In this document: positions 50,254-59,316 of the stretch, piece after piece
Numbering within the stretch: position 1 is the first letter of the stretch
How the letters are laid out: every line of letters starts with the position of its first letter
NCBI GenBank assembly: GCA_000961695.1
Contig: LADW01000089.1
Span: 62,001 to 126,000, forward strand
DNA length: 64,000 nt
Origin: Hyphomonadaceae bacterium BRH_c29
Lineage (GTDB): Bacteria > Pseudomonadota > Alphaproteobacteria > Caulobacterales > Hyphomonadaceae
Direction: 5' to 3'
Made by a program: the position numbers and the translations under genes
The notes under the pieces: model-generated
Database searches by the model: none
What the model was told of the DNA's origin: nothing
Seen by the model: only the letters and a program-made list of their open reading frames with translations

Positions 50254-50857
50254 GTAGCTCCCTGATAATCAGAATTGTTCCTGACCCACCAACCCGGCTT
50301 GGAATCGCCTCATGAGCGAAATTCCACGTTTGGCTGGCGTCCGTCAATTCTTCTTTCCAGCGTTCGCCCTTGAAGAATAGCCCTGATGCGCCGCGTTTGA
50401 GCCATGGCGCGGCATAGTCGAGCAATTTCGGAAGCGGCGCAAAGGCCCGCGCCGTGACGAAATCGGCAGGCATTGGCTCCACCGATTCCACCCGTTCCTG
50501 TCTCACCGTGGCATTCAGACCCGCCGCTTCAATGGCTGCGCGAAGGAAGGCGCACTTCTTTCCCACGCTTTCGATCATGGTGACATGCCCCGCGGGACGC
50601 GCCGCCCCGATGATCAGGCCCGGGAAGCCGGCGCCGGACCCGAGATCCACGACCTTCGCGTCTTCCGGAATGAGATCCAGGATCTGGAAACAGTCGGCCA
50701 CGTGCCGGGTCCAGATCACAGGCCATTCGCGCGGACCGATCAGATTGCTCCGCGTCCGCCAGTCATCGAGCGTGTCGATGACCCGGTCGAGACGGTCCAG
50801 TGTTTCACGTGAAACATCGTTCGCGGCCAGAAAGGCCGCGCGATCATCATTTACCAT
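50237..50857 (-). CDS. rsmG: 16S rRNA m7G527 methyltransferase
   Basis: 206 residues. SAM-binding motif VVDLGSGAGFPGLIIGAA and the downstream MIESVGKKCAFLRAAIEA; N-terminal DVSRETLDRLDRVIDTLDDWRTRSNLIGP. The coding sequence contains a perfect parS site at 50801-50816, which encodes parts of DVSRET. It lies 3 bp after mnmG and overlaps parA by 17 nt, giving a compact operon. Confidence 0.95.
   Translation of the reverse strand: MVNDDRAAFLAANDVSRETLDRLDRVIDTLDDWRTRSNLIGPREWPVIWTRHVADCFQILDLIPEDAKVVDLGSGAGFPGLIIGAARPAGHVTMIESVGKKCAFLRAAIEAAGLNATVRQERVESVEPMPADFVTARAFAPLPKLLDYAAPWLKRGASGLFFKGERWKEELTDASQTWNFAHEAIPSRVGGSGTILIIRELRGDRS
50801..50816. other. parS site 1 (inside rsmG)
   Basis: TGTTTCACGTGAAACA is a perfect 16-bp palindrome and identical to the parS consensus used by bacterial ParB. 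It lies within the rsmG coding sequence about 7.5 kb from the presumed oriC. Confidence 0.95.
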
Positions 50858-50860
50858 GGT

Positions 50861-52726
50861 TTATCCCGCTTTCCGGCGGCGTTTGACGTGACCGAGGAGC
50901 GCCGTAAGGGCTCCGGGCGTCACGCCTTCGATACGACTGGCCTGTCCGAGGGTGGCTGGCCGGATGGTTTCAAGTTTCTGGCGGACCTCATTCGAGAGAC
51001 CGCCAATGGCGGAATAGTCGATCTCGTCCGGAATTTGGAGCGCTTCATCCCGGCGAAGGGCTTCCACGTCTCCGGCCTGGCGTTCGATGTATCCGGAATA
51101 GAGGGCTTCGATTTCCAATTGGACCGCGATGGCCGGATCGATCTCCGAAAGCTCCGGCCAGACCCCGGCGAGCGTTTCGAGCGTGATGTCCTTGTATCCG
51201 AGATACTCCCACGCCGTCCGGATCTTGCCATCCTGATTAACGTTCCACCCCGCCTCACGGGCCTTCGCGGGGGACAAAGACAGGATTTGGAGCGCTTTTC
51301 GCGATTCCGAGAGGGCCAAATGTTTCACGTGAAACATCGCCGCCCGGTCCGGACCGACGCATCCGGCCTCGATGCCTCTCTGCGTCAGACGCTGATCGGC
51401 ATTGTCGGCGCGGAGGGCCAGTCGGTATTCGGCCCGCGATGTGAACATCCGATAGGGCTCGGTCACGCCGCGCGTAATGAGATCGTCGATCAGAACGCCG
51501 ATATAGGCTTCGGCCCGGTCCATGATGACCGGATCTTTGCCGTCGGTGGCGCGGGCCGCATTGAGACCCGCCATCAGACCCTGGGCGCCAGCTTCTTCAT
51601 AGCCGGTCGTGCCATTGATCTGTCCGGCCAGATAAAGACCGGGCAGGACTTTCACTTCCAGCGCAGCATTCAGGGCGCGCGGATCGACATAGTCATATTC
51701 GATGGCATAGGCGTGCTGGAGGATTTTGACGTTCTCCAGACCGGGGATCGTCCGGACAAACCGCTCCTGAACGTCTTCCGGAAGCGAGGTCGATATGCCG
51801 TTCGGATAGACCGTGTGATCGTCGAGACCTTCCGGCTCCAGGAACACCTGATGGCGGTCCCGGTCGGCAAAGCGGTTCACCTTGTCTTCGATCGAGGGAC
51901 AGTAACGCGGGCCGCGCCCGGCAATCGCGCCCGAATAGACGGCAGACTGTTCGATATTCTCTTCAATGATCGCGTGGGTTTCCCGCGTGGTCCACGTGAT
52001 GCCGCAAGCGATCTGAGGCACCTCGATCCGGTCGGTCAAGTAGGAGAAGGGCACCGGTTCATCGTCGGCCGGCTGCATTTCCAATTGGTCCCAGGCGATG
52101 GTCCGGCCGTCGAGCCGGGCAGGCGTGCCCGTCTTCAGCCGTCCCATCGGCAGGTCCAGACTATAGAGCCGGTCAGACAGGCCAATCGCAGGGGCTTCAC
52201 CCACGCGGCCAGCCGGAATACGCTTCGCCCCGATATGGATCTCGCCCTTCAGGAAGGTGCCCGTCGTGATCACAACGCAGGACGCGTGATATTTATCGCC
52301 CGTCAGGCCAATCACACCCGCAACATGGCCGTCCTCAACAATCAGGTCTTCTGCGCCATCTTCAATGACAGTCAGGTTCTCGTGATTCAGGATCGCGTCC
52401 TGCATGGCCTGGCGATAGAGCTTGCGGTCGATCTGCGCGCGTGGGCCCCAGACGGCGGGGCCTTTGGACCGGTTCAGCATGCGGAACTGGATGCCCGCCT
52501 TGTCGGCGAGGCGGCCCATCAGACCGTCCAGCGCATCGATCTCGCGCACGAGATGACCTTTGCCGAGGCCGCCAATCGCAGGATTGCAGCTCATCTCGCC
52601 AATGGTCGACAACTTGTGCGTGACCAGCGCCGTCCTTGCGCCATAGCGCGCAGCCGCAGACGCGGCTTCGCATCCGGCATGGCCGCCGCCGACTACAATG
52701 ACATCAAAGCGGGTTTCACCCGGCAT
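50861..52726 (-). CDS. mnmG: tRNA uridine-5-carboxymethylaminomethyl modification enzyme MnmG (GidA)
   Basis: 621 residues. N-terminal FAD motif [24 protein letters not shown]; the second FAD motif [21 protein letters not shown] carries the catalytic Cys, and [17 protein letters not shown] is typical. With MnmE it makes the nm5/cmnm5 group at U34 of tRNAs. The C-terminal helical domain is complete. A second parS site lies within the gene. mnmE lies 64 bp upstream on the same strand. Confidence 0.97.
51321..51336. other. parS site 2 (inside mnmG)
   Basis: A second perfect TGTTTCACGTGAAACA, encoding part of MFHVKHLA in mnmG, 520 bp from site 1 and about 7 kb from oriC. Confidence 0.95.
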
Positions 52727-57093: not shown

Positions 57094-58131
57094 TCAACCT
57101 TCCCGCAGAATCTTCAGAACGCGCTCGACGTTTACGATCGGCGTCTCAGGACGGACGCCATGGCCGAGATTGAAGATATGGGGTCGACCGGAATAGGCTG
57201 CCATCAATTCCCGGACGCGGGCATCGAGGCGCTCACCGCCTTCGATCAGCAGCAGGGGATCAAGATGCCCCTGAACCGGCATGTCAGCAGGAAGCGCAGC
57301 ATTTACGAATGACGGAACAGCAGCCGTATCCAGCCCGACAGCCGTGACACCTGTTTCCTTTGCATAGGGTTCCAGCATCACGCCGGCGCCGCGCGGAAAA
57401 CCGATGATCGGCACGGTAATGCCTTTCTCGCGCAGGCGTGAAACAAGCTTCGTCGTCGGCGTGATGATGACTTCCCGGAAGATATTGTCCGGCAGGCCCT
57501 CAGCCCAGCTATCAAACAGCATCAGCGCATCGGCGCCGGCCTCAACCTGACGAGCGAGATATTCAGCTGTCGCCTCAATCACCTTATCCATGACCGCTGC
57601 CAGATCACCCGGCCGTCCATGGGCCCAGCGCCAGGCATCGGACTTGTCCGTCTTGCCGCGTCCCTCGATGGCATAGAGGCTGACCGTCCAGGGCGAGCCC
57701 GCAAAGCCGATGAGCGTGGTTTCAGCTGGAAGCGCCGCGCGCACACGCAACACAGTTTCGTAGACCGGGGACAGCCTGTCCGCCGCCTTGATGGCCGGCA
57801 CACGGTCCAGATCAGCCGGCCCGGAAATCTGCTCGACCAGAGGGCCGACACCTTTTTCGAATTCTACACTGAGGCCCATCGCATCCAGGATCAGCAGGAT
57901 GTCAGCGAAGAGGATCGCGCCATCCATGCCATAGCGCCGAACTGGCTGCAGTGTCGCTTCAGCTGCCATTGAAGGCGTATAGCAGAAATCGAGAAAGTCT
58001 TTTGCCCGGACACGAAGCTCAAGATACTCAGGCAGATGCCGCCCCGCCTGGCGCATCATCCATACCGGTGGCCTTTCAAAGCGCTCTCCGCTGAGAACCC
58101 GGAGTAGTTTTTTCGTTCCATCGGTGCCCAT
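57094..58131 (-). CDS. hemE: Uroporphyrinogen decarboxylase
   Basis: 345 residues from MGTDGTKKLLRVLSGERFERPPVWMMRQAGRHLPEY; the PVWMMRQAGR-x-x-PEY signature carries the active-site Arg and later FAGSPWTV, with HGVRPETPIVNV near the end. An in-frame ATG 36 codons upstream would add residues (ISALTGFVLGIWKNA...) unlike the family and overlapping origin DNA, so ATG 58131 is chosen. The first gene of hemE-hemH-hemJ, transcribed away from oriC. Confidence 0.96.
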   Translation of the reverse strand: MGTDGTKKLLRVLSGERFERPPVWMMRQAGRHLPEYLELRVRAKDFLDFCYTPSMAAEATLQPVRRYGMDGAILFADILLILDAMGLSVEFEKGVGPLVEQISGPADLDRVPAIKAADRLSPVYETVLRVRAALPAETTLIGFAGSPWTVSLYAIEGRGKTDKSDAWRWAHGRPGDLAAVMDKVIEATAEYLARQVEAGADALMLFDSWAEGLPDNIFREVIITPTTKLVSRLREKGITVPIIGFPRGAGVMLEPYAKETGVTAVGLDTAAVPSFVNAALPADMPVQGHLDPLLLIEGGERLDARVRELMAAYSGRPHIFNLGHGVRPETPIVNVERVLKILREG

Positions 58132-58185
58132 GGCGTTTTTCCAAATTCCTAAAACAAAGCCCGTCAGGGCACTTATGACTATTAG

Positions 58186-58433
58186 ACGGTGAGTCCGTGG
58201 GAAAAAGGGTGATGCGCGGATTTGTCCAGCGAATTCCACATGAGACTCACAGGCTGACGGACAGGGTTAACACTTCCTTTAAGCCCGGGATTCAATGGTT
58301 AACCAAACGTAAACACCCCAATGGGACTCACAGCCCGGAACGGAAGGTGATTCCTCGGAGTCGGATTCTGCTGCCTGTGAGTCCTTTGTGAGTCCCGGCG
58401 GACAAATTGCTCCATCCACAGGCGACTCACAGG
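58186..58433. repeat. Dispersed GACTCACAGG-type origin repeats
   Basis: Copies: ACGGTGAGTC at 58186-58195 (minus, imperfect), GACTCACAGG at 58244-58253, GACTCACAGC at 58325-58334, CCTGTGAGTC at 58374-58383 (minus), TTTGTGAGTC at 58385-58394 (minus) and GACTCACAGG at 58424-58433. Each holds a GANTC methylation site fused to a CACA end like that of DnaA boxes. Confidence 0.8.
58299..58313 (+). promoter_or_regulatory. CtrA-like binding site in oriC
   Basis: TTAACCAAACGTAAA reads TTAA-N7-TAAA, one mismatch from the CtrA full site TTAA-N7-TTAA, in the middle of the origin gap, where Caulobacter CtrA sites repress initiation. Confidence 0.55.
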
Positions 58434-58473
58434 CCTTGTGAAATCCGGAAACCTCGGCAAGACAGGAATGGTC

Positions 58474-59316
58474 ATGACCCGGCCCCTACGTCCCAGCATC
58501 TATTTCAACGTTCACCTCGTCTCGGACTCAACCGGCGAGACCCTGAACGCGATTCAACGTGCCGCCTGTGCCCAGTTCGAAAACGTTCAGGCGCTTGAGC
58601 ACAATTATTACCTCGTTCGCTCCGAACGCCAGCTCGAACGTGTGATCCGCGAGATCGAAGCGGCGCCGGGCGTCGTCTGGTACACAATCTCGGACGAGGG
58701 TCTGCGCGGTCGGCTGGAATCCTTTTGCCGTGAGCGCGGTGTTCCGACCTTGCCCGTGCTGGATGCGTCCATCGCCATGCTTGGCCGACACCTCGGCATC
58801 TCGGCGAACCAGAAAGTGGCGGGTCAGCACGCGCTCGACGAAGAGTATTTCGAGCGGATGGAAGCGATCAACTTTACGCTCGCCCATGATGACGGGCAGA
58901 ATGTCGAAAGCCTGACCGGCGCAGATGTGATCCTTCTGGGCGTCAGCCGCACCTCCAAGACGCCGACCTGTGTGTATCTCGCCAACAGGAAAGTCCGGGC
59001 GGGCAATATCCCGCTGGTGCCCGGCGTGCCGCTGCCGCCGCATATCGAGAAAATGGGGGAGAACGGCCCGATGGTCGTCGGCCTGAAGATCAGCGCCGAG
59101 CGGCTCGTCCAGATCCGCCGCGCGCGCCTTATTTCTCTCAATGAAGACGAGCACACAATCTATGCTGACGAAGGTGCTGTGCGCGAAGAGGTAACCCAGG
59201 CCAACCGGCTGTTCCAGCGCAACAAGTGGAAGACAATCGATGTCTCCCGCCGCTCCGTTGAAGAAACTGCTGCGGCGATCCTGAACCTGCTCAATGAACG
59301 CCGGGGGCACCTGTGA
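58474..59316 (+). CDS. ppsR: Pyruvate, phosphate dikinase / PEP synthase regulatory protein (DUF299)
   Basis: 280 residues. Bifunctional kinase/pyrophosphorylase that controls PPDK or PEP synthase. It begins MTRPLRPSIYFNVHLVSDSTGETLNAIQRAA; the nucleotide-binding loop is LLGVSRTSKTPTCVYLANRKVRAGNIPLVPGV; the end has IDVSRRSVEETAAAIL. Start 58474 has AGGA 6 nt upstream; earlier in-frame starts (GTG 58438, ATG 58468) fall in the origin region. This gene flanks the origin in Caulobacter and Rickettsia as well. First of a tight operon. Confidence 0.93.
   Translation: MTRPLRPSIYFNVHLVSDSTGETLNAIQRAACAQFENVQALEHNYYLVRSERQLERVIREIEAAPGVVWYTISDEGLRGRLESFCRERGVPTLPVLDASIAMLGRHLGISANQKVAGQHALDEEYFERMEAINFTLAHDDGQNVESLTGADVILLGVSRTSKTPTCVYLANRKVRAGNIPLVPGVPLPPHIEKMGENGPMVVGLKISAERLVQIRRARLISLNEDEHTIYADEGAVREEVTQANRLFQRNKWKTIDVSRRSVEETAAAILNLLNERRGHL

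Follow-up and report, generated by a model that had tools for sequence, protein, structure and literature searches.

The gap between hemE and ppsR in this genome, which is a Hyphomonas, is a chromosomal origin homologous to Caulobacter Cori, and it carries an array of sites in which GANTC, the target of the methylase CcrM, runs directly into CACA, the end of a DnaA box. We regard it as probable, if well short of assured, that this Cori-type origin is built of weak, CACA-ended DnaA boxes that contain the CcrM site; methylation may gate the refilling of these boxes. Placed there, GANTC could let the methylation state directly control the time of chromosome copying.

A Cori-type origin between hemE and ppsR

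The origin region covers 342 bp (58132..58473, no strand) of the 64-kb stretch of DNA analyzed here (the window). Its left neighbor is hemE (57097..58131, minus strand; ORF 57094..58239, with the ATG at 58131 and a translation that begins MGTDGTKKLLRVL), which we take, as in an earlier note on this DNA, to encode uroporphyrinogen decarboxylase; its right neighbor is ppsR (58474..59316, plus strand; ORF 58438..59316), presumably, on the same grounds, the gene of a PEP synthase regulatory protein of the DUF299 type. A ppsR relative is present in 103 of the 105 genomes of the family, and hemE on the minus strand diverges from ppsR on the plus strand in the 99 gaps examined, which leave out G001 and G097 (no PpsR match), G071 and G090 (hemE missing in the stretch), G042 (contig end; read separately), and G013. 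The position between a divergent hemE and a ppsR-type gene is that of a Cori-type origin. Hyphomonas gaps are 338 to 347 bp long with a single exception, the 754-bp gap of G066 (locus L050), which exceeds the other 39 by ~410 bp and still has two of the TCCACA-N3-GANTCACA modules described below; the excess implies an insertion into, or a duplication within, its origin. G066 was excluded from alignments, spacing counts, and change counts, and one of the identical gaps G052 and G070 from the Hyphomonas alignment and change counts.

Along 108.6 kb of contig (the window plus neighboring sequence), the cumulative GC skew has both its minimum and its change point at 58,635, where the mean skew turns from negative on the left-hand side to positive on the right-hand side. 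About 7 kb from the origin lie two perfect parS sites (TGTTTCACGTGAAACA, at 50801-50816 and 51321-51336). In Hyphomonas neptunium, marker-frequency sequencing maps the origin near hemE, with parAB ~7 kb off (PMC6650430). The assignment of the origin to the hemE-ppsR gap, already made in the earlier note, therefore rests on synteny, on the two parS sites, and on a replication start that is indicated by skew in this contig and by published marker frequency in H. neptunium; GC skew, which the note had named as a check, supports the assignment.

Several stretches of the gap outside the array are also strongly conserved in Hyphomonas. Among the most conserved is GCCCGTCAGGGC (58159-58170), a possible hairpin in the region upstream of hemE; further blocks are TTGTCCA (58222-58229), CTTGTG (58434-58439), whose minus strand reads CACAAG, and CGGCAAGA (58455-58462).

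The fused repeat and its arrangement

Ten GANTC sites lie between 58191 and 58428, just as had been claimed (ten in 238 bp). The word is strongly avoided elsewhere in the window, which holds 124 copies where dinucleotide shuffles predict 312. At the density outside the gap (1.75/kb over the 108.6 kb of contig), 0.6 sites are expected per 342-bp gap, giving a Poisson probability of 9e-10 for at least ten; in the count per 250 bp that the earlier note had proposed, made here on the 108.6 kb of contig, no stretch outside the origin exceeds four.

The repeat was originally described as six copies of a 10-mer, GACTCACAGG, three in each orientation. We find exactly three copies in the gap, at 58244 (plus), 58374 (minus), and 58424 (plus); 58325 reads GACTCACAGC, 58385 (minus) reads GACTCACAAA, and 58186 (minus) reads GACTCACCGT, without CACA. 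GACTCAC occurs six times and GANTCACA five times in the window's gap. We rejected the 10-mer as the unit: the conservation in relatives that the earlier note asked for fails, with exact copies in 6 of the 40 gaps of Hyphomonas, and its own genome holds four copies (three of them at the origin) against four matches to a reversed control. The same conservation check is passed strongly by the 8-mer GANTCACA, which is found in 40/40 Hyphomonas gaps at three to five copies each; the fusion of a CcrM site with CACA thus stands, with GANTCACA as its unit in place of the 10-mer. The gap of G042 likewise holds five copies of GANTCACA and nine GANTC. When GANTC is read in a given orientation, ACA follows in 166 of 639 cases in Hyphomonas gaps; for the background of the contig the figure is 1 of 378. 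Over the 3.7-Mb genome GANTCACA is not enriched (84 copies versus 81 for the reversed control), with five copies at the origin where 0.007 are expected.

Fitch counts on a hemE/ppsR tree of 38 distinct Hyphomonas gaps place, for the three sites S1, S2, and S4 (coordinates below), 13 inferred changes in the three N columns and three in the remaining 21; averaged over the gap, a column has 3.4. At S4, N takes all four letters and the rest is invariant in 38/38 gaps. This would be expected if a free-centered palindrome, GANTC, and an ACA tail were both under selection. Two other assignments were rejected. As a motif of wider distribution GANTCACA is not supported, being present in three (with one, one, and two copies) of 36 gaps from other families of the order (39 fetched, three dropped without hemE in the stretch). 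TCACA is also half of a CRP/FNR-like site, TGTGA-N6-TCACA; by eye the five sites form no such palindrome, and a site of this kind would not require the GA before N to be frozen.

We compared the sites one by one across 39 aligned Hyphomonas gaps and 28 gaps of a sister genus (g3, Henriciella-type). The array begins with box A (58235..58240, plus strand; context ATTCCACA), a candidate half DnaA box that reads TCCACA in 39/39 Hyphomonas and 23/28 g3 gaps. S1 (58244..58251, plus strand) follows at 11 bp and, like S2 to S5 in the window, reads GACTCACA; it matches GANTCACA in 37/39 Hyphomonas gaps, and its place in g3 is taken by TCCCCA (13), TCCATA (7), or other sequences (8 of 28). S2 (58325..58332, plus strand) matches GANTCACA in 38/39 gaps, with A, C, or G as N. 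On the minus strand, 11 bp apart, lie S3 (58376..58383) and S4 (58387..58394). S3 is the variable box: CACA is present in 39/39 Hyphomonas gaps, within GANTCACA in 15, TCCACA in 13, and other sequences in 11, and in 28/28 g3 gaps, 14 of which have TCCACA. No site is better conserved than S4 (GANTCACA in 39/39, with all four letters as N). Box B (58415..58420, plus strand; context CATCCACA), a second candidate TCCACA half-box, keeps CACA in 39/39 and TCCACA in 32/39 Hyphomonas gaps (28/28 and 22, respectively, in g3). S5 (58424..58431, plus strand), 11 bp after box B, matches GANTCACA in 33/39 Hyphomonas gaps; its place reads TCCACA in 28/28 g3 gaps, CACA being kept in 67/67 gaps of the two genera, and in one genome of genus g9 (G088) it reads GATCCACA, the core of the Caulobacter G-box TGATCCACA.

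S1, S3, and S5 therefore align with DnaA-box-like sequences of the TCCACA/TCCCCA type in the sister genus; the places of S2 and S4 have CACA in 0/28 g3 gaps. Of three gaps from g9, two have GANTCACA at S4 and all have an S2 that ends in CACA; the single g6 gap has S1 and S4, and Hyphomonas has more sites. With few genomes and a tree without support values, we do not press a stepwise order of appearance. GANTC is absent at S5 in 6/39 Hyphomonas gaps, which form one clade, and at S3 in 24/39, so not every box needs it. The remaining five GANTC sites of the gap are not fused to CACA. The one at 58191..58195, palindromic and part of GACTCACC on the minus strand, lies in columns whose number of changes is close to the mean of the gap or exceeds it, and the one at 58289..58293 (no strand) is poorly conserved in the Hyphomonas alignment; three more start at 58349, 58358, and 58364 (58349..58368, no strand), of which GAGTC at 58358 is well conserved.

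The two TCCACA half-boxes at 58235 and 58415, which the earlier note did not include, each stand exactly 11 bp before GACTCACA. The array thus consists of three same-strand pairs 11 bp apart (A-S1, B-S5, and S4-S3) and the single S2, that is, of CACA-ended same-strand sites one helical turn from each other, as in an array of weak boxes. A same-strand CACA-CACA spacing of 11 bp occurs on 78/78 strands of the 39 Hyphomonas gaps (3/78 for the control word ACAC), and GANTCACA comes 11 bp after TCCACA on 39/78 strands, one in each gap; the g3 gaps have TCCACA or TCCATA at this distance after TCCACA on 23/56 strands. The period is about that of the weak sites in Escherichia coli, whose 9-mers are separated by 2 bp (PMC6727663) or 2 to 4 bp (PMC5742627). 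All 42 Hyphomonas genomes have the module TCCACA-N3-GANTCACA, 29 in two copies and 13 in one, and all 71 copies lie at the origin locus, at most 652 bp from the ppsR match, with no match to the reversed pattern. The module can thus serve as a sequence tag of the Hyphomonas origin. Across the class it was found in 11 of 387 genomes, three of them Hyphomonas with two copies each and eight others with one copy each (three for the reversed control); in the seven of these eight other than G415, the 3-kb locus contains neither hemE nor ppsR. Two of the genomes, G351 and G436, belong to one genus and have an identical module sequence.

These arrangements bear on a reading in which the sites have nothing to do with the initiator: methylated GANTC would allow GcrA and sigma-70 to control the promoters of hemE and ppsR, which diverge, and CACA would belong to a promoter or to a regulator site. 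The genome does encode GcrA as well as a CcrM ortholog (E 5.6e-161 to the CcrM structure 6pbd), and GcrA acts preferentially at promoters with methylated GANTC (PMC8116508). Nevertheless, five sites of mixed orientation over 188 bp, with CACA partners at 11 bp, are unlike one or two promoters, boxes of the TCCACA/TCCCCA type correspond to S1, S3, and S5 in the alignment, and the module is confined to the origin locus in 42 genomes; we consider promoter control rather unlikely as the explanation of the array.

Putative DnaA boxes and the initiator

DnaA boxes follow the consensus TTWTNCACA. Allowing one mismatch, this pattern has 24 matches in the window and two in the gap, neither of which ends in CACA; the gap indeed has no perfect DnaA box, as noted earlier, nor even a one-mismatch match with the CACA end. 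The Caulobacter origin uses G-boxes (TGATCCACA) and W-boxes (TCCCCA) (PMC4285127), and the window's gap contains neither of these, nor other near-consensus boxes. In a register taken from TTATCCACA, GANTCACA covers box positions 2 to 9, with G2 as in the G-box, position 4 free, and T5, which TTWTNCACA allows. It departs from the consensus at T4, where it accepts any base, inside the TnCACA part that is read by the recognition helix; because of this departure, binding of DnaA to GANTCACA may be very weak. The GANTCACA sites are likely to be weak DnaA boxes; for S2 and S4, which have no counterpart in g3 (CACA in 0/28), descent from DnaA boxes is putative. In H. neptunium, GC skew, the dnaA gene, and searches for DnaA sites had given no clear origin before the mapping described above (PMC6650430), and we infer that an array of GANTCACA would explain why the prediction of DnaA sites failed.

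The genome encodes DnaA, whose recognition helix keeps DHTTV. In E. coli, two parts of the protein share the box: Arg399 recognizes the 5' TTA from the minor groove, and TnCACA is left to the helix (PMC5742627). According to alignment and residue count, the Arg399 position is a lysine in the 11 Hyphomonas and two g3 DnaA proteins examined, which may agree with boxes that have lost their 5' half, although this is only suggestive. The same lysine lends something to the view that Hyphomonas DnaA just happens to prefer GANTCACA among drifting low-affinity boxes, which coincide with the CcrM site by accident: DnaA may read the 5' half in another way, and what stays invariant at S3 and S5 is CACA. 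What speaks against this view is that N is free (four letters at S4) while the flanking G, A, T, and C are nearly frozen, a pattern that better fits a GANTC palindrome than a half-site; moreover, the five other GANTC of the gap are not fused to CACA, and GANTC is otherwise scarce in the window. An incidental match is quite improbable in our judgment.

A second peculiarity of DnaA was considered and rejected as a Hyphomonas-specific partner of the unusual origin. A residue other than arginine occupies the arginine-finger position (E. coli Arg285) at 58 of the 60 best-scoring loci, which come from four families of the order (L149-L178 and L220-L249, that of the present genome, G000, being L178; the sampled fifth family, f5, is not among them). 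The residue is glutamate or aspartate in the Hyphomonas family, and the three remaining families have H, V, L, I, or Y. The two copies that bear arginine, L150 (G069) and L159 (G013), come from genomes with three matches each and may be contaminants. The model of ATP-dependent oligomerization based on E. coli Arg285 may therefore not apply unchanged to these proteins.

Methylation and comparison with known origins

The earlier note suggested that the methylation state could tune initiator binding, and the alignment of three of the sites with TCCACA/TCCCCA boxes of the sister genus is consistent with this idea. In the scheme that we infer, from DnaA binding to GANTCACA and the direction of change at S1, S3, and S5 to the effect of methylation and its sign, boxes of the TCCACA/TCCCCA type would have changed to GANTCACA in Hyphomonas at S1, at S5, and repeatedly at S3, S2 and S4 carrying GANTCACA as well. 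This would put GANTC inside the 9-base recognition sequence of the initiator; one methyl group would sit on A3 of the box and one across from position 5, beside the bases that the helix recognizes. The origin would fire when its boxes are fully methylated, and replication would leave them hemimethylated. CcrM is reported to be active only late in the cell cycle, and DnaA, or a competing reader, would refill the boxes only after this late methylation, which would create a refractory period. To this, the CtrA-like sites interspersed with the boxes would add a block of the Caulobacter type.

One such site, TTAA-N7-TTAA with one mismatch, lies at 58267..58281 (plus strand), and another, TTAACCAAACGTAAA, also with one mismatch, at 58299..58313 (plus strand); the TTAA half of the latter is invariant in the Hyphomonas alignment. 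We take TTAA-N7-TTAA to be the CtrA motif. By number alone these sites are unremarkable, as the window has no exact match and three one-mismatch matches where 2.1 are expected. At least one exact match is present in 31 of 40 Hyphomonas gaps, and CtrA ChIP-seq finds binding that adjoins the origin of H. neptunium (PMC7200025).

Methylation sites that overlap weak DnaA sites are already known from E. coli oriC, where GATC overlaps R5, I2, I3, tau1, and tau2, and hemimethylation together with SeqA prevents these sites from being filled (PMC4285127, PMC6727663). In Hyphomonas the methylase target likewise overlaps putative weak initiator sites (S1, S2, S4, and S5, in 33 to 39 of 39 gaps), packed about one helical turn apart; here, however, the methylase is CcrM and the target GANTC, and the methylation site stands in the same register in each box. 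The Hyphomonas array may thus be a convergent parallel to Dam/SeqA. The parallel could extend to a protein that specifically reads hemimethylated DNA and, with the role of SeqA, would bind GANTCACA after replication and exclude DnaA. We find such a reader unlikely, as no SeqA-like protein is known in Alphaproteobacteria and a protein that reads GANTC alone would not need the frozen ACA tail. In its favor, a cluster of GANTC at the origin that overlaps box-like elements is the counterpart of the SeqA block in E. coli (PMC4285127). Returning to weak boxes gated by methylation, a more specific form of this proposal, which we entertain only tentatively, is that the initiator itself reads the mark: hemimethylation would directly weaken the loading of DnaA, and initiation could be limited to once per cycle without a SeqA-like protein.

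The role of CcrM in initiation in Alphaproteobacteria is unsettled. In Caulobacter crescentus, CcrM is reported not to be needed for the control of initiation, which persists in cells that lack it and speaks against our scheme; overexpression of CcrM leads to extra chromosomes (PMC3973325). At ori2 of Agrobacterium tumefaciens, overexpression causes over-initiation, and the authors propose that hemimethylation of ori2 blocks re-firing (PMC11514494). From these two overexpression effects we derive the expected sign in Hyphomonas, with full methylation permissive and hemimethylation causing delay. The origin described here resembles C. crescentus Cori in being intergenic and flanked by hemE and in its weak DnaA-box-like elements, its candidate CtrA-like TTAA-N7-TTAA sites (one mismatch each), and its CcrM, GcrA, and DnaA; the C. 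crescentus origin also has several GANTC (PMC3973325). It differs in that five box-like sites contain GANTC, whereas the G- and W-boxes of Caulobacter contain none, and for this reason Hyphomonas may differ from C. crescentus, where CcrM is reported to be dispensable for initiation control (PMC3973325). The repABC origin ori2 is likewise an alphaproteobacterial origin at which GANTC methylation is proposed to restrain re-initiation, but it depends on RepC, not DnaA, and GANTC within initiator boxes is not described in the excerpts of PMC11514494; as a further point against the scheme, RepC binding at repABC origins is reported to be independent of methylation (PMC6090056). Another close case is the H. 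neptunium origin, which belongs to the same genus, was mapped near hemE, and has CtrA binding adjoining it (PMC6650430, PMC7200025). The open-access literature, among the matches listed, holds no account of GANTC-containing DnaA boxes or of the Hyphomonas array. H. neptunium is a genetically tractable budding bacterium. Because a single sequence serves as methylation site and as putative initiator box, the question of CcrM becomes directly testable there.

A gap rich in GANTC, without the fusion to CACA, is more widespread than the array. Five of ten genera, Hyphomonas among them, have 13 to 32 GANTC/kb in the gap and 0.9 to 2.8/kb in the flanking coding DNA; the other five have 4 to 11/kb in the gap. 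Genera g10 and g5 are enriched without the CACA fusion, so the density of GANTC may serve a separate purpose. Origins with 9 to 14 GANTC are found in 11 of 13 g10 genomes (L124, L129, L131, L132, L134, L137, L138, L140, and L142-L144) and in the single g5 genome (L135). Judged by their alignment, these 12 are a second form of GANTC-rich origin: they have a tandem GAGTCGAGTC that never varies and a TTGTCCACA that is nearly as constant (11/12), in place of the Hyphomonas array of GANTCACA.
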